The notes under the pieces were generated by a model, which saw nothing but the letters and a program-made list of their open reading frames with translations, was not told where the DNA came from and searched no databases. From positions 1 through 5,695 of the forward strand of contig CAKUPI010000122.1 in NCBI GenBank assembly GCA_934675045.1: a DNA stretch of 5,695 bases, in the 5' to 3' direction. Below are positions 1 through 5,695 of this stretch, one piece after another. The stretch is from an uncultured Eubacteriales bacterium (GTDB lineage: Bacteria; Bacillota; Clostridia; Oscillospirales; Butyricicoccaceae). Position 1 is the first letter of the stretch; every line of letters begins with the position of its first letter. Made by a program: the position numbers and the translations under genes.

Positions 1-67
1 GGCCCGCCGCGCGCTCGGCGCCGTCCTGCCCGCCGGGCGCGCCCGGCTTTTGTTTTTTCCGCGCCAT
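1..67 (-). CDS. Start of a downstream gene, probably the partner ABC half-transporter (partial)
   Basis: Only the first 22 codons are inside the window; the gene runs off the left edge. The visible N-terminus is MARKKQKPGAPGGQDGAERA, a basic, Gly/Ala-rich tail with no domain of its own. The ATG (67-65) shares one base with the TGA of the preceding ABC gene (a TGATG junction), and a GGAGG ribosome site lies just inside the end of that gene, so the two are translationally coupled. The upstream product is a half-transporter carrying the degenerate catalytic site, and such genes are normally followed by the gene for the catalytically complete half. Flexible basic or Gly-rich tails are common at the start of these partners. 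The assignment rests on context only; the sequence itself proves just that a gene starts here. Confidence 0.6.
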   Translation of the reverse strand, partial: MARKKQKPGAPGGQDGAERAAG

Positions 68-1773
68 CAGCTCACCTCCTCCATCTGTACGCTCACGATA
101 AACCGGTAGCTTTCGCAGGTGTCCATCAGCTCGTCGTGCGTGCCGTAGCCGACCGCCTTTCCGTCCTCCAGCACCAGAATCTTGTCGGCATTGCGGATGG
201 AGCTGACGCGCTGCGCCACGATAATTTTGGTTGTGTCGGCAAAATCGCGGGCCAGCGCGCGGCGAAGCTCCGCGTCGGTTTTGTAGTCAAGGGCGCTGGA
301 GCTGTCGTCGAGCAGCAGAATATCGGGCGAGGCCGCCATTGCGCGCGCCAGCAGCAGCCTTTGCTTCTGCCCGCCGCTCAGGTTGGCCCCCTTGGGCACC
401 AGCTCGTACTCAAATCCCTCCTCGCGCCCGGCGATAAACTCCGCCTGCGCCGTGCAGGCGGCCGCTTCGATCCGCTCGCGCGACAGCCCGCGGCCGAAGT
501 CGATGTCCTCTGCAATCGACCCGGCATACAGAAAATCGTTCTGGAACACAACGCCGAACATGGTGTGCAGCACCTCGTGGGGGATGCTGCGCACATCGCG
601 GCCGCCGATGCGCACGCTGCCCTTGTCCGGGTCGTAAAACCGCAGCAGCAGGTTGAGAATGGTGCTCTTTCCGCTGCCCGTCGGGCCGATGATGCCCAAG
701 GTTTCGCCCTTGTTCAGCGAAAAGCTGATGTCGGTCAGGTTGTCGCGCATTTTGCCGTAGGAAAAGGTGACGTGGTCAAACGCAATGCAGCTTTCCTCGT
801 CGCGGACGGGCACCGGCTGCGGCTCCATCTGCTTTTCGCTGTTCATCACCTCGGCAATGCGGTTGGCGCTGGCCACGCCCTTGGAGTACATGACAAACAG
901 GCGAGTCACCATCAAAAGCGCGTTGAGAATGATGGTAAAGTAGCTCATAAAGGCGATGATGGCACCCGGGCCGGTGACGCCGGCGTTGACGCGGTAGGCG
1001 CCCACGACAATGACGCAGACCAGGCCGGTGTTGAGCAAAAAGTTCATGACCGGGTTGGTGATGTTCATCAGCGCGGCGGCGCGGCGCTCGCAGCGCACGA
1101 CGTCGGCGTTGGCCTCGTCAAAGCGCTGCTTTTCATAGTCCGACTTGGACAGCGCCTGAATGACGCGAATGCCCGCCATGCTCTCCTGCGCGCGGCGGAG
1201 CATACGGTCAAGCGCCTGCTGCGTTTTTCCGTACAGCGTGACACCGCGTTTCGACACCTGCCGCACAATCACGGCCAGCAGCACCATGACGGCGGCCAGC
1301 ACCATCGTCAGCACCGGGTCCAGCAGCAGGGTGAGCGCCGTGCCGCCCAGCAGCAGAATGGGGGCGCGGATACCCAGCCGCTGCATGCGATCGATCATCT
1401 GATACACATGGTAGGTGTCGGTGGTCAGACGGGCGACCAGCGACGGCGTGGTAAACATGTCCTCCTGCGCGCAGGACAGATGCGCCGTTCGGGTAAACAG
1501 ATCGCGGCGCAGCTGCTGCGTAATGCTGCGCGAAATGCGGGTGGCCATGCGGTTGGCCGTTATGTTGGCGCAAAGGGCCAGCGCGGCGCACAGCACCATG
1601 CCCAGCCCCCAGCAGACAATGCGGCGGACATCGCGCAGCGGCACCAAATCATCCAGAATGACGGACAGCATCCACGGCAGCAGCAGCTCGACGATGGTAC
1701 CGCCGAACTTGATGGTGACCTGCAGCGCCATGCCTTTCAGCCGGGGCCTGATATACGTATAAATCATCTTCAT
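67..1773 (-). CDS. ABC exporter half-transporter (TMD-NBD) with degenerate catalytic site
   Basis: This 568-residue ABC-type multidrug/lipid exporter half-transporter has a six-helix membrane domain (about residues 14-295) followed by a nucleotide-binding domain. Visible motifs are Walker A GPTGSGKST (363-371), Q-loop VVFQND (Gln about 411), signature LSGGQ (465-469), Walker B ILLLDD (485-490), D-loop SALD (493-496) and switch region VAQRVSSI. Two key residues are altered: the catalytic Glu after Walker B is Asp490, and the switch His is Gln521. Heterodimeric exporters such as TM287/288 and BmrCD carry this pattern in one subunit, which binds but barely hydrolyses ATP, so this is inferred to be the non-catalytic half. 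The start is the ATG at 1773, which overlaps the upstream marR stop (ATGA) and is preceded by GGAG; an in-frame start 32 codons earlier would lie inside the regulator gene. The substrate is unknown; co-transcription with a MarR repressor suggests drug or stress efflux. Confidence 0.93.
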   Translation of the reverse strand: MKMIYTYIRPRLKGMALQVTIKFGGTIVELLLPWMLSVILDDLVPLRDVRRIVCWGLGMVLCAALALCANITANRMATRISRSITQQLRRDLFTRTAHLSCAQEDMFTTPSLVARLTTDTYHVYQMIDRMQRLGIRAPILLLGGTALTLLLDPVLTMVLAAVMVLLAVIVRQVSKRGVTLYGKTQQALDRMLRRAQESMAGIRVIQALSKSDYEKQRFDEANADVVRCERRAAALMNITNPVMNFLLNTGLVCVIVVGAYRVNAGVTGPGAIIAFMSYFTIILNALLMVTRLFVMYSKGVASANRIAEVMNSEKQMEPQPVPVRDEESCIAFDHVTFSYGKMRDNLTDISFSLNKGETLGIIGPTGSGKSTILNLLLRFYDPDKGSVRIGGRDVRSIPHEVLHTMFGVVFQNDFLYAGSIAEDIDFGRGLSRERIEAAACTAQAEFIAGREEGFEYELVPKGANLSGGQKQRLLLARAMAASPDILLLDDSSSALDYKTDAELRRALARDFADTTKIIVAQRVSSIRNADKILVLEDGKAVGYGTHDELMDTCESYRFIVSVQMEEVS

Positions 1774-2192
1774 TGCAGCTTCTCCGCACGAGCCGCCAGA
1801 CGCTCCAAAAGCTCTTCCAGCACCTCGATTTCTCTCTCGTCCATCCCCTCGGTCAGCGCGTTGCGCCATGCGCCGAAAACTTCGCGCACGACCGGCAGGG
1901 CCTTCTCCATTTTTTCCGTCGGGTAAACGCAGAGCACACGCCTGTCATTGGGACTGCGCGTGCGGGTGATGAATCCGTTTTCCTCCAGCAGCGCCAGCTG
2001 CCGCGTCACGCTGCTGCGGTTGACGCGCAGGCTCTGCGCCAGCTCATCCTGCGCAATGCCGGGCATGCGGCAGATGCGCGTGACATAGGGCGCCTGATAG
2101 CCGCTGATGCCGATGTGCTCCAGCTTCGCGTCGCGGTAAAGCGATGCACACCGCGCAATCAGCCCGATGTTCCACATGAGGTTGCCTTTCAT
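1770..2192 (-). CDS. MarR-family transcriptional regulator
   Basis: This 140-residue protein has the usual MarR length. The winged helix-turn-helix covers about residues 46-92: IAQDELAQSLRVNRSSVTRQ is the helix-turn-helix core, followed by LEENGFITR and a wing containing the family-typical PNDRR (81-85). The flanking N- and C-terminal helices form the dimer interface in this family. The start at 2192 has GGAGG seven bases upstream; a Met at codon 6 is an alternative with poorer spacing. The gene is first in the operon, and its TGA overlaps the ATG of the ABC subunit by four bases. A near-perfect palindrome (2211-2224) sits at the predicted transcription start of a consensus promoter, so autorepression with relief by a ligand, possibly a substrate of the exporter, is the likely mode. 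The family call is firm; the ligand cannot be read from the sequence. Confidence 0.94.
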   Translation of the reverse strand: MKGNLMWNIGLIARCASLYRDAKLEHIGISGYQAPYVTRICRMPGIAQDELAQSLRVNRSSVTRQLALLEENGFITRTRSPNDRRVLCVYPTEKMEKALPVVREVFGAWRNALTEGMDEREIEVLEELLERLAARAEKLQ

Positions 2193-2259: not shown

Positions 2260-2368
2260 GCCGGAGCAAAGGACCGGTTGAAAGCCCCCCCTGTGCGTAA
2301 AAGATCCCTGTTCTGTATCGGAAAAAGCCCGCTTTTGGCGGCCCGAAAGCCCGGCAGCCGTGTTTGTC
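2260..2368. other. Intergenic spacer with no recognised gene
   Basis: This stretch lies between the marR promoter and the start of the repeat array. It has runs of C and A and a short CCGC/GCGG inverted repeat around 2330, but no start codon with a ribosome site and no convincing RNA gene. Long open frames on both strands pass through it into the array; they lack initiation signals and cross the promoter, so I do not call them. Confidence 0.5.
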
Positions 2369-2575
2369 TTGCTTGCGCCCGTGCTTGCCCATTTTGCTCT
2401 GTGCTTGCCTGTATTTGCCTGTTTTTGCCCCGCGTTTGCCTTGCTTTCGCCGTGCTTGCCCGCATTTACTCTATGCTTGCCTGTATTTTCCCCGCGACCG
2501 CCCCGCGTTTGCCTTGCTTTCGCCGTGCTTGCCCGCATTTGCTCTGTGCTTGCCTGTATTTGCCTTGCGTTTGCC
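2369..2575. repeat. Helically phased TTGC array in ~72-bp higher-order tandem units
   Basis: On the plus strand TTGC, or one-base variants of it, recurs at 2405, 2415, 2425, 2436, (2446), 2456, (2466), 2477, (2487), 2509, (2519), 2529, 2539, 2550, 2560 and 2571; brackets mark variants such as TTCGC, TTAC or TTTC. The mean step is about 10.4 bp, one DNA turn. Above this is a longer unit: 2428-2490 and 2501-2563 match at 60 of 63 positions at an offset of 73 bp, and a third, weaker copy of part of the unit begins near 2381. Neither 73 nor 10.4 is a multiple of three, so this is not a coding repeat. The plus strand is pyrimidine-rich. It lies between the tRNA terminator and the marR operon promoter; its function is unknown. 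Confidence 0.85.
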
Positions 2576-2606
2576 CCGCTTTCACCCGTGATTGTCCTGA
2601 AAGCAC

Positions 2607-2653: not shown

Positions 2654-2728
2654 TGGAGGCGCCACCCAGATTTGAACTGGGGAATCAGGGTTTTGCAGAC
2701 CCGTGCCTTACCACTTGGCTATGGCGCC
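2654..2728 (-). tRNA. trnC: tRNA-Cys (GCA)
   Basis: A cloverleaf can be folded: acceptor GGCGCCA/TGGCGCC, T-arm CCCAG-TTCAAAT-CTGGG, and anticodon loop CTGCAAA with GCA at 2696-2694. The discriminator base is U, as required for tRNA-Cys, and the CCA end is encoded (2656-2654). Its length is 75 bases with CCA. The first anticodon-stem pair is a C-U mismatch. It is the last gene of the five-tRNA operon, followed directly by the terminator. Confidence 0.96.
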
Positions 2729-2736
2729 ATAGAAGA

Positions 2737-2770
2737 TGACAGGAGCTTTTAACGCTAAAAACTCCTGTCA
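2737..2770 (-). other. Hairpin in the tRNA-Gly/tRNA-Cys spacer
   Basis: TGACAGGAG (2737-2745) and CTCCTGTCA (2762-2770) are a perfect nine-base inverted repeat. After one C/A mismatch the stem continues with TTTT/AAAA, closing on a six-base loop. No U run follows on either strand, so it is not a standard terminator; a processing or 3'-trimming signal within the polycistronic tRNA transcript is the likelier role (inference). Confidence 0.75.
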
Positions 2771-2776
2771 GAAAAC

Positions 2777-2852
2777 TGGAGCGGATGACGAGGCTCGAAC
2801 TCGCTACCTCCACCTTGGCAAGGTGGCGCTCTACCAGATGAGCTACATCCGC
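2777..2852 (-). tRNA. trnG: tRNA-Gly (GCC)
   Basis: The acceptor stem is GCGGATG/CATCCGC, the T-loop is TTCGAGC, and the anticodon stem-loop is CCACC-TTGCCAA-GGTGG with anticodon GCC at 2819-2817. The discriminator is U and the CCA end is encoded (2779-2777), giving 76 bases. Only three bases separate it from tRNA-Phe upstream, so the two are processed from one transcript. Confidence 0.97.
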
Positions 2853-2855
2853 AGG

Positions 2856-2931
<76 letters not shown>

Positions 2932-2935
2932 ATAA

Positions 2936-3012
2936 TGGCGACCGTGAACGGGCTCGAACCGTCGACCTCTAGCGTGACAGGCTAGCGTTCTAACCAACTG
3001 AACTACACGGCC
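2936..3012 (-). tRNA. trnD: tRNA-Asp (GTC)
   Basis: The acceptor is GGCCGTG/CACGGTC (one G-U pair), the D-arm contains AGTTCAGTTGGTTAGAAC, and the anticodon loop is CTGTCAC with GUC at 2978-2976. The discriminator is G, an identity base for tRNA-Asp, and CCA is encoded (2938-2936). Length is 77 bases. A 56-base spacer with a small hairpin separates it from tRNA-Trp. Confidence 0.96.
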
Positions 3013-3042
3013 ATGAGGAGGAAAGAACCCCCGGTCTCTATC

Positions 3043-3063
3043 AAAACCTCATCAGAGGATTTT
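3043..3063 (-). other. Small hairpin in the tRNA-Trp/tRNA-Asp spacer
   Basis: On the minus strand AAAA-T-CCTC, loop TGAT, GAGG-TTTT forms a short stem with one bulged T and four trailing U. It resembles a weak terminator, but three more tRNA genes follow, so it is more likely a processing or partial attenuation element. The stem is short and the call is tentative. Confidence 0.45.
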
Positions 3064-3068
3064 AACAG

Positions 3069-3144
3069 TGGCAGGGGCAGAAGGAATCGAACCCTCGGCA
3101 CGCGGTTTTGGAGACCGCTGCTCTACCGGCTGAGCTATACCCCT
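3069..3144 (-). tRNA. trnW: tRNA-Trp (CCA)
   Basis: The acceptor is AGGGGTA/TGCCCCT, and the anticodon stem-loop is GCGGT-CTCCAAA-ACCGC with anticodon CCA at 3111-3109. The discriminator is G, as in bacterial tRNA-Trp, and CCA is encoded (3071-3069). Length is 76 bases. It is the first gene of the operon, starting about nine bases after the predicted transcription start. Confidence 0.97.
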
Positions 3145-3300: not shown

Positions 3301-3438
3301 TCAGTCGGCGAAATCCTCTTCGTTTTCCTCTTTGCAGCAGGGGCAATATTGGGGGTTGACCTTGAAGAAGTAAAAAACGAAAACGAGGAAGGCGGAAACG
3401 ACAGACAATGCCGCGAGCCAGCCCAACAGCTTTTTCAT
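3301..3438 (-). CDS. Small single-span membrane protein with CPCC motif
   Basis: This 45-residue protein has three parts: a short basic start (MKKLLGW), a hydrophobic helix (about residues 8-25, rich in Val/Phe/Ala), and a tail containing YCPCC (31-35) followed by an acidic end EENEEDFAD. The three closely spaced cysteines could bind metal or take part in disulfide exchange, but nothing here proves it. The basic N-terminus suggests N-in topology with the Cys/acidic tail outside, or alternatively an uncleaved signal anchor. The start at 3438 is supported by AAGGAG eight bases upstream; a longer reading beginning at 3498 would start inside the promoter. The gene has its own promoter (3470-3498) and terminator, so it is probably a real gene. 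I do not recognise the family and give no function. Confidence 0.8.
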   Translation of the reverse strand: MKKLLGWLAALSVVSAFLVFVFYFFKVNPQYCPCCKEENEEDFAD

Positions 3439-3522: not shown

Positions 3523-4791
3523 TTATTTCAAAGCGCCCTTTTCCACGATGACGCGGCCGGCCTTGACGGTGTACAGAACCCTGCCGCGCAGTGTTTTGCC
3601 CTCGAAGGGGGTGTTCTGGCCGCGGGAAACAAAGCGGCGGCCGGAGCAGACCCATTCGGCGTCGGGGTCAAAGAGGACAAAGTCGGCGTCGTACCCGGCG
3701 GCGAGCCGCCCGGTCTTGAGGCCCAGCAGGGAAGCCGGTGCGGCCGACAGGCGGTCAAGCACCCCGGCCAGCGGCATTTCGCCCGTGTGGTACAGGGCGG
3801 TCAGGCAGACCGGCAGGGCGGTTTCCAAAGAGGAGGCGCCGCAGGCGGCCGACAGCAGGGAGCGGTTTTTGTCGGCGGCCGTCAGGGGGGTGTGGCCGGA
3901 GGCGACGCAGTCGATGACGCCGCTTTTGAGCCCGTCGCGCAGCGCGCGGACGTCCTCGGGGTTGCCGAGGGGCGGGTCGAGCTTGCAGAGGGGGCTGAAC
4001 GAGCGCAGCTCAGACGAGGTGAGGGCCAGATAATGCGGCTCGGTCGAGCAGGTCACGGGCAGGCCGTGCGCCTTGGCCTCGGCGATCAGGCTGACGGTGG
4101 CCGCCGTGCTGACGTGGGCCAGATGCACGGGCGCGCCCGACTCGCGGCACAGCACAAGGTCGCGCGCCGCCATGACGGCTTCGGCTGAGGCGGGAATGCC
4201 CTGCACCTCCATCATGCGGGAAAAGGCGCCCTCGCGGATGTAGCCCTCGCCGCACAGCCGCTTTTCGCGGCAGCGCGACAGGAGAAAGGCGCTGTGCTTT
4301 TTGGCGCGGAAGAGCGCGTCGCGCATCAGCAGGGGGTCGTCGATGCCCTCCTCGTTGTAAAAGGCGCGCGCGCCCGCCAGCTTGAGGTCGCCGTAGTGCA
4401 GAAGCTCGCGCCCGTCGGCCGTCAGCCGCGCCGCGGGCAGAAGATCACAGCTGGCATACTGCGCGCGCTCGATAAAATCGGTGATGTCCTGCGGCGTACA
4501 CGCGCCGAAGTGGGCGCACACCGCGGTGTACCCGCCGGCGGCCGCCGCGCGCGACAGGCTGATGGCGCTTTCGTGCCCCTGCGCCGACGGCTCGGTAACG
4601 CGGGCGTACAGGTCGACAAGCCCGGGGGCGAGGCAAAGCCCGCCGGCGTCAATGCGGGGGAAGTCACCGGCGCCCCTGCCGGCGTCCGGGCCGATGGCGG
4701 CGATGCGTCCGTCCTCGACGCGCACGTCGCCCGGGCCGTCAAGGCCGTCGCGCAGGCTGAGCAACCGGGCGTTTTGAATGAGCAGTTTCAT
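3523..4791 (-). CDS. pyrC-like: Dihydroorotase-family protein (PyrC-like), probable catalytically dead pseudoenzyme
   Basis: At 422 residues it has the normal length and domain order of a class I dihydroorotase (amidohydrolase fold, cyclisation of carbamoyl-aspartate in pyrimidine synthesis). Family landmarks are clear: APGLVD (55-60), AAAAGGYTAV (82-91), HLAHVST (223-229), LPVTCSTEPHYL (244-255), KLDPPL (270-275) and NTPFEG (393-398). The active site is not preserved. The metal-binding HxH after PGLVD is Tyr62-Ala-Arg64; the bridging DDG region is EEG (147-149); the HCE histidine is Arg173; the ATDHAPH motif is ASGHTPL, with the catalytic Asp as Gly299 and the last His as Leu303. The substrate-binding FREP arginine is Thr66 and the MPNT asparagine is lost. 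Only His226 of the metal histidines remains. The frame is intact, so this is a maintained protein, not decay. An inactive structural partner, like PyrC'/PyrX of pseudomonads with aspartate transcarbamoylase, is the best analogy; a new activity is also possible. Confidence 0.9.
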   Translation of the reverse strand: MKLLIQNARLLSLRDGLDGPGDVRVEDGRIAAIGPDAGRGAGDFPRIDAGGLCLAPGLVDLYARVTEPSAQGHESAISLSRAAAAGGYTAVCAHFGACTPQDITDFIERAQYASCDLLPAARLTADGRELLHYGDLKLAGARAFYNEEGIDDPLLMRDALFRAKKHSAFLLSRCREKRLCGEGYIREGAFSRMMEVQGIPASAEAVMAARDLVLCRESGAPVHLAHVSTAATVSLIAEAKAHGLPVTCSTEPHYLALTSSELRSFSPLCKLDPPLGNPEDVRALRDGLKSGVIDCVASGHTPLTAADKNRSLLSAACGASSLETALPVCLTALYHTGEMPLAGVLDRLSAAPASLLGLKTGRLAAGYDADFVLFDPDAEWVCSGRRFVSRGQNTPFEGKTLRGRVLYTVKAGRVIVEKGALK

Positions 4792-4796
4792 AAGCA

Positions 4797-4802
4797 CACC
4801 TC
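4797..4802 (-). promoter_or_regulatory. Ribosome binding site fixing the start of the dihydroorotase-like gene
   Basis: GAGGTG on the minus strand ends five bases before the ATG at 4791. An in-frame GTG at 4797 lies inside this site and cannot use it, so the ATG two codons later is the better start. Confidence 0.75.
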
Positions 4803-4826
4803 GCTGTTCACTGAAATGATAAGGAA

Positions 4827-4856
4827 GCGGCGCGGTTTGCGCACGTGCAGCGCCGC
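4827..4856 (-). other. GC-rich hairpin in the leader of the dihydroorotase-like gene
   Basis: Perfect seven-base arms GCGGCGC (4827-4833) and GCGCCGC (4850-4856) enclose 16 bases that include the 8-bp palindrome GCACGTGC (4841-4848). It lies within the predicted 74-base leader. It has no U run and no recognisable PyrR-binding consensus, so a regulatory role is only possible. Confidence 0.5.
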
Positions 4857-4871
4857 GGATGGGACAATTTC

Positions 4872-4900
4872 AGTATATCATACCGCCGGGAAGGGCGCAA
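4872..4900 (-). promoter_or_regulatory. Promoter of the dihydroorotase-like gene
   Basis: On the minus strand TTGCGC (4900-4895), a 17-bp spacer and TATACT (4877-4872) with TGA before it (extended -10, TGATATACT) predict a start near 4865. The -35 is weak (three of six), but the extended -10 is the same as in the small CPCC gene promoter. Confidence 0.7.
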
Positions 4901-4910
4901 TTCCCCTCGG

Positions 4911-4916
4911 TATAAA
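4911..4916 (+). promoter_or_regulatory. Candidate -10 box of the 59-residue protein gene
   Basis: TATAAA matches five of six -10 bases and lies about 50 bases before the ATG at 4966. No convincing -35 box stands 16-18 bp upstream and there is no TGn extension, so the call is weak. The position would place this promoter back to back with that of the dihydroorotase-like gene. Confidence 0.3.
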
Positions 4917-4965
4917 GTGTGCGCCGGCGGGGATACTAAGCGGCGAAACAAGGAGGTATCAAGCC

Positions 4966-5315: not shown

Positions 5316-5695
5316 ATGGAGCAGCAGAGCCTTTTGGATGGCCGCGCGCAGGCGCTGCGTCCGCTGGCCAGCCGTCTGCGCCCGCGCACGCTCGGCGAGT
5401 TTGTCGGGCAGGAGCATCTGTTGGGGCCGGGCAAGGTGCTGCGCCAGCTGATCGAGCAGGACCAAATCGGGTCGATGATTTTCTGGGGGCCGCCGGGCGT
5501 CGGGAAAACGACGCTGGCCCGCATCATAGCCGGGCGCACGAAGGCCGCCTTCATCGACTTCAGCGCCGTGACAAGCGGAATCAGGGAAATCCGCGAGGTC
5601 ATGAACCGCGCCGAGGAAAACCGGCGCTTTGGGGAGAAAACCATCGTCTTTGTCGACGAAATCCACCGCTTCAACAAGGCGCAGCAGGATGCATT
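5316..5695 (+). CDS. rarA: Replication-associated recombination protein A (RarA/MgsA), N-terminal part
   Basis: This is an AAA+ ATPase of the RarA/MgsA/WRNIP1 family, acting at stalled replication forks and related to clamp-loader ATPases and RuvB. The 126 visible codons include the family N-terminal block [20 protein letters not shown] (16-35), Walker [10 protein letters not shown] (58-66), the sensor-region stretch [20 protein letters not shown] (77-96), and Walker [18 protein letters not shown] (110-126). The full family length is about 420-450 residues, so roughly two thirds lies beyond the window; there is no sign of damage in the part seen. The start at 5316 has GAGGTGGGAG upstream. An in-frame ATG ten codons earlier (5286) overlaps the candidate -10 box and lacks a ribosome site. 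It has its own promoter after a terminator, so its expression looks independent of the small gene. Confidence 0.96.

Follow-up and report, generated by a model that had tools for sequence, protein, structure and literature searches.

A clostridial dihydroorotase homologue that has probably lost its activity and belongs to a conserved family away from pyrimidine genes

Results

The subject of this work is a gene in a 5,695-nucleotide stretch of DNA from an uncultured Eubacteriales bacterium (contig CAKUPI010000122.1; "the window" means this whole stretch). The gene encodes a homologue of class I dihydroorotase (DHOase, PyrC), and its frame is intact, with no interruption across all 422 residues, as the first-pass annotation of this DNA had stated. 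The homology to the amidohydrolase barrel extends over the full length, and the predicted structure model has a predicted local distance difference test score (pLDDT) of 93.2. The protein scored 267.8 bits against TIGR00857, below the curated cut-off of 279.05, and it is likely to be without dihydroorotase activity, judging from the residue exchanges described below. No pyr gene was recognised within the window, again in line with the first-pass annotation. The features are collected in Table 1.

Table 1. Features of the window, with the DHOase-like gene first
Feature	Position	Strand	Evidence or remark
Predicted dihydroorotase-fold pseudoenzyme, 422 residues	3523..4791	-	Open frame, PDB DHOase matches, model, 32-cluster family
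Intergenic stretch between divergent genes	4792..4965	.	Weak promoter-like site on the minus strand
Weak promoter-like site	4962..4933	-	TTGATA-18-TAGTAT, 9/12; overlaps the ribosome-binding region of the small gene
Divergent small protein, 59 residues	4966..5145	+	Hydrophobic stretch near the start; no Pfam match
Small protein, 45 residues (MKKLLGWLAALS...)	3301..3438	-	Downstream flank of the DHOase-like gene; likewise in G087
Presumed RarA-like AAA ATPase, 5' part	5316..5695	+	Upstream flank; match to G084, G085, G086
MarR-type regulator, then ABC exporter	67..2192	-	
Tandem array	2358..2579		3.1 copies of a 73-base unit (82% matches); flanked by the MarR-like gene and the tRNA cluster
Five-tRNA cluster	2654..3144	-	Cys, Gly, Phe, Asp, Trp

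Two in-frame starts were considered, an ATG at 4791 and a GTG at 4797. The ATG is the better start, because the GAGG...TTATGAA upstream of it is retained in the related genome G087 and partly retained in two others, G069 and G001. Residue numbers given here count from the GTG and are therefore those of the first-pass annotation plus 2.

We placed the active-site residues by alignment to solved DHOases, in gapless stretches, and to 90 reference DHOases picked for having the HxH motif, so that both HxH columns are 100% in the references by construction. The alpha-site ligands of class I DHOases (HxH with the metal Asp, and the Asp of ATDH) were found to be replaced: HxH reads Y64-A65-R66, E149 occupies the position of the metal Asp (Aquifex D153) and is directly followed by a one-residue deletion, and the ATDHAPH motif reads ASGHTPL, with G301 in place of its Asp. 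The histidine of HCE is R175. The arginine of FREP, the asparagine of MPN and the histidine of ATDHAPH, which we take to be the substrate-binding residues, are T68, G98 and L305. The motif replacements listed in the first-pass annotation (YAR, EEG, an Arg, ASGHTPL, a Thr and a missing Asn) were thus borne out. Its statement that only His226 is kept was slightly too strong; this beta-site histidine (H228 here) is retained, and so are the carboxylate E149 and H302.

According to the available part of a study of the Aquifex DHOase, a single zinc is held by His61, His63 and Asp153, with Asp305 next closest, and replacements of beta-site ligands, histidine included, left activity unaffected (PMC3880350). 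The exchange of His for Arg at 175 alone is therefore no proof of inactivity. What supports the predicted loss of activity is instead that the two HxH histidines, the ATDH Asp (Aquifex Asp305) and the substrate residues are all absent.

A protein profile search, of which the best 120 of 675 matches were listed, returned 32 protein clusters, counting that of the window protein, with scores of at least 623 bits. Below this family came a chimeric fragment, P0030, at 400 bits, and the other listed matches scored 374 bits or less. Four full-length family members among these best 120 matches carry a name in their source, three as dihydroorotase and one as amidohydrolase family protein. P0030 (332 residues, on a 1.6-kb contig) consists of repeat-like and FKBP-like pieces joined to the C-terminal half of the family protein, and is most likely an assembly chimera. 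We removed 14 loci by hand before alignment (L003, L004, L012, L017, L030, L032, L033, L035, L037, L039, L041, L042, L044 and L047).

The exchanges seen in the window protein are fixed or nearly fixed across the family. R175, S251, D274 and H302 are invariant (32/32 each), and S300 and A65 are nearly so (31/32 each). Position 301 is Gly in 26 clusters and Asp in the remaining six, which belong to one sub-branch; position 228 is His in 27 and Gln in five; E253 is present in 25, and Asp or Glu at 149 in 28. Histidine was found at position 64 in no cluster and at position 66 in two, and the substrate Arg68, Asn and His are kept in 0, 4 and 0 of the 32. Among 57 columns fixed in the 90 HxH-bearing DHOases, the family has lost 18 (13 of them inside motif segments) and not lost 39, and eight columns, all inside motif segments, are fixed to different residues in DHOases and in the family. 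Such a pattern of lost and exchanged motif columns is what we would expect if the pocket had been re-specified rather than eroded, though it is not proof of this.

Conservation was also evident at the level of the whole protein, with 66 invariant columns among 28 family sequences. The window and G087 proteins are 77.9% identical, with 0.160 nonsynonymous (dN) and 0.664 synonymous (dS) substitutions per site and a dN/dS of about 0.24 by the Nei-Gojobori method; this ratio comes from that pair only, the remaining pairs being near saturation. In four of the six pairs among G001, G065, G069 and G087, the family protein was more similar between the two genomes than the other PyrC was, and in two it was less so; the other PyrC of G069 was partly masked in the comparison. 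Because the family is bounded at 32 clusters, has Arg175, Ser251 and Asp274 in 32/32 and shows a dN/dS of about 0.24 between the window and G087, it is by these measures maintained and not decaying.

We surveyed 87 genomes from the taxonomic family of G001, a goat-rumen metagenome-assembled genome (MAG) that holds locus L001. The DHOase-like gene was found in five of them (G001, G065, G067, G069 and G087), a number that is a lower bound since the completeness of the drafts is not told, and its frame is open in all five. In an order-wide search of 394 genomes, in which at most four candidates per genome were scored, a family member was found in G001 only; the next scores were 412 bits or less, and the 29 best non-family matches had canonical motifs.

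The first-pass annotation had suggested, as a check, a search for a second, HxH-bearing dihydroorotase and for pyrB. In four of the five carriers (G001, G065, G069 and G087) there is a second PyrC of canonical type on another contig, and HxH could be read in three of these; the corresponding stretch of G069 is masked, while SDDG, HCED and ATDHAPH are intact. The canonical-type PyrC adjoins pyrB in G001, G069 and G087. The fifth carrier departs from this, as the draft of G067 gave no match to a second PyrC and nothing over the cut-offs for pyrB, pyrD or pyrE. We did not use G067 as proof of a pyrimidine auxotroph that retains the DHOase-like gene, because a pyr contig may be missing from the draft. 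The matches to pyrB, pyrC, pyrD and pyrE in the other four carriers all lie on contigs other than that of the DHOase-like gene; G087 has no pyrE over the cut-off, and pyrD of G069 appears only as two pieces, both under the cut-off.

Degenerate PyrC proteins that are independent of the family and more recent were seen in two Pseudoflavonifractor MAGs, G439 (L003:6308-8757) and G440 (L004, match 10001-11263). These keep HAH, and have Cys for the HCE histidine, Arg for the HVST histidine and Gly for the ATDH Asp. The degenerate PyrC is followed by a degenerate PyrF (in L004 the next gene, 11321-12127), which is without the DIKRGDI motif and about 20 following residues. A PyrC with canonical motifs was found in G440 as well, but not in G439.

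We compared the family with PyrC'/PyrX, the inactive DHOase chain whose gene adjoins pyrB. No pyrB lies in the window, the pyrB genes of four carriers are on other contigs, and no PyrB over the cut-off was found in G067. Eight aligned non-carriers (G054, G058, G062-G064 and G084-G086) have a PyrB of the type found in G001, G069 and G087 (the last partial), and G065 carries the DHOase-like gene with a different PyrB type. No carrier-specific N-terminal extension was seen in the aligned PyrBs, the true start codons of which are uncertain. A tree of 72 rows (20 of the family and five PyrX-like rows, assigned by motif and not by annotation) was made by a quick search with Shimodaira-Hasegawa-like approximate likelihood ratio test (SH-aLRT) support only. 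In the best tree the 20 sampled rows of the family form one clade (support 100), whose neighbour, with support 82, is a degenerate G052 PyrC, and which lies apart from the PyrX-like proteins.

The second pyr operon of G052 (L087:5887-10809, contig C34) contains PyrR-like, PyrF-like and CarA-like genes along with an atypical PyrB, at 211.5 bits and under the cut-off, and a partly degenerate PyrC; all gene names apart from PyrB and PyrC were assigned by eye. The same genome also encodes a further PyrC, whose motifs are canonical, and a PyrB that exceeds the cut-off.

The neighbours of the DHOase-like gene were compared in six loci, the window included. A homologue of the 59-residue small protein lies divergently upstream in five of the six, the exception being G067. 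We rejected it as a specific partner, because it was matched in 41 of the 87 genomes (E 0.001 or better), and it occurs without the DHOase-like gene in G066 and G068, beside a flippase-like open reading frame (ORF; the ORFs of about 3 kb were read by eye). A conserved operon partner was likewise rejected, since the only other shared neighbour was a gene, presumably PhzF-like, in G001 and G069. The window and G087 share the order divergent small protein, DHOase-like gene, 45-residue protein gene and tRNA-Trp. In G086 the divergent small protein and the 45-residue protein gene lie about 150 bases apart and the DHOase-like gene is missing between them, with no match to it in the 5.9-kb contig or elsewhere in the draft. 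A relative can therefore live without the gene. The RarA-like fragment of the window is 91-92% identical over 126 residues to those of G084, G085 and G086 (91% for G086). RNA regulation linked to pyrimidines was discarded as a candidate, the Rfam matches in the window being the five tRNAs only. The listed ATG of the ABC exporter falls inside the gene of the MarR-type regulator, so that the exporter probably begins at a later codon.

Discussion

We propose, with a probability of roughly 45%, that the window protein is dead as a dihydroorotase and has a non-catalytic role, binding a ligand in the former active-site pocket without a metal. The metal- and substrate-binding residues have been exchanged, several for new fixed residues, and dihydroorotase activity would have been lost with them. 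The pocket formed by Arg175, Ser251, usually Glu253, Asp274, Ser300 and His302 might then bind a small, perhaps anionic, metabolite, and the protein might relay this to some process or partner that lies outside the pyr operon. A place of the family in pyrimidine synthesis is doubtful. A broader claim would be that a whole clostridial clade turned a DHOase into a metal-free receptor or a new enzyme, its active site rebuilt around Arg175, Ser251, Glu253, Asp274 and Ser300 and its gene having left the pyr operon, and that the protein now serves another process, as the CRMP proteins do in animals; we consider this somewhat unlikely.

Several observations weigh against the proposed ligand-binding role. 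Among 24 newly fixed family columns that are variable in DHOases, 21 lie outside the motif segments, so the pocket is not singled out by the new constraint. Fixed pocket columns are also a property of PyrX-like proteins (H175 and S274, 14/14 each), for which a scaffold role is assumed. Since Asp301 occurs in 6/32 clusters and a carboxylate at 149 in 28/32, one metal is possible for some members. The genomic context points to no partner. In the tree analysis, a joint clade of the family and the PyrX-like proteins was not rejected (p 0.143), and the G052 neighbour of the family sits behind a pyrB. A PyrX-like protein whose gene moved out of its operon could be the ancestor of the family.

The first-pass annotation had read the gene as either a Firmicute counterpart of PyrC'/PyrX or a pseudoenzyme with another job. 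The look of a pseudoenzyme holds up, with another DHOase in four of the five carriers. The former reading has become weaker because non-carriers share the PyrB type, the pyr genes are on other contigs and G086 is without a copy between the same flanks. It would make the protein a dead structural subunit that aids the assembly of aspartate transcarbamoylase (PyrB). The available part of one study supports such a role in Pseudomonas aeruginosa, where the dead chain is required for aspartate transcarbamoylase activity and PyrB alone forms no trimers (PMC7053772). Together with the different PyrB type of G065, the canonical-type PyrC encoded beside pyrB in three carriers and the separate position in the best tree, these observations make a structural subunit of this kind unlikely in the present family.

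Less probable still is that the protein pairs with the cell's own active PyrC in mixed dimers and thereby tunes PyrC activity. The scaffold is retained and most carriers have a canonical-type PyrC, as this explanation would have it, but the canonical PyrC is distant (that of G001 is 35% identical to the window protein), lies on another branch of the tree and has no positional link with the DHOase-like gene. We attach a similarly low probability to a zinc-sparing dihydroorotase, or another enzyme working without zinc. The new fixed polar residues in the pocket motifs (Arg, Ser, Asp and mostly Glu) and the frequent Asp or Glu at 149 are consistent with it, and a Zur-regulated PyrC paralogue without the conserved zinc ligands is reported, in the available part of its description, to be active (PMC2770081), a further point against the ligand-binding proposal. 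On the other side stand the near-complete loss of the substrate Arg, Asn and His, the G086 draft, which has no copy at the shared site and no member found elsewhere, and the surroundings of the gene in the window, where no zinc gene was noticed and no Zur-box scan was made. A decaying, functionless duplicate is very improbable: the patchy distribution over drafts of untold completeness and the absence in G086 would suit it, but the open frames in all carriers, the low dN/dS of the sole pair not near saturation and the invariant columns with their new fixed residues would not.

Returning to the metal-free, ligand-binding protein that we favour, its family differs from the known systems in distinct ways. 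Class I DHOases (PyrC; Bacillus anthracis 3mpg and 4yiw, Aquifex 3d6n and 4bjh) have the HxH motif, the HCE histidine, the ATDH Asp and the substrate Arg, Asn and His, which the family replaces; unlike PyrC, the family was not seen with other pyr genes. PyrC'/PyrX of the class A2 aspartate transcarbamoylase, as far as the available part of the P. aeruginosa report describes it (PMC7053772), resembles the family as a predicted inactive DHOase homologue that has lost HxH. Its gene lies beside pyrB, whereas that of the family does not, and PyrX-like proteins keep His175 (14/14), Asp301 (14/14) and Arg68 (12/14), as against 0/32, 6/32 and 0/32 in the family. The Zur-regulated paralogue of proteobacteria, which we compared by description only and from part of its report, is likewise an extra PyrC copy without the conserved zinc ligands; it is predicted to be zinc-regulated, and no such link was seen for the family (PMC2770081).

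No clostridial pseudo-dihydroorotase appeared among the matches listed in searches of the open-access literature (PMC), a scope outside which many journals lie. Where family members are annotated as dihydroorotase, a genome can be assigned a step of pyrimidine synthesis that the protein is probably unable to carry out. The inactive dihydroorotases known best are those that partner aspartate transcarbamoylase. The present proteins, predicted to be dead as well, form a free-standing family that was found away from the pyr genes, and they offer a clean case for asking to what new uses an amidohydrolase barrel without metal can be put. Animals offer a parallel in the CRMP/DPYSL proteins, which have the amidohydrolase fold and non-enzymatic roles; the fold is shared by the clostridial family, for which we propose that the role may be non-enzymatic too.
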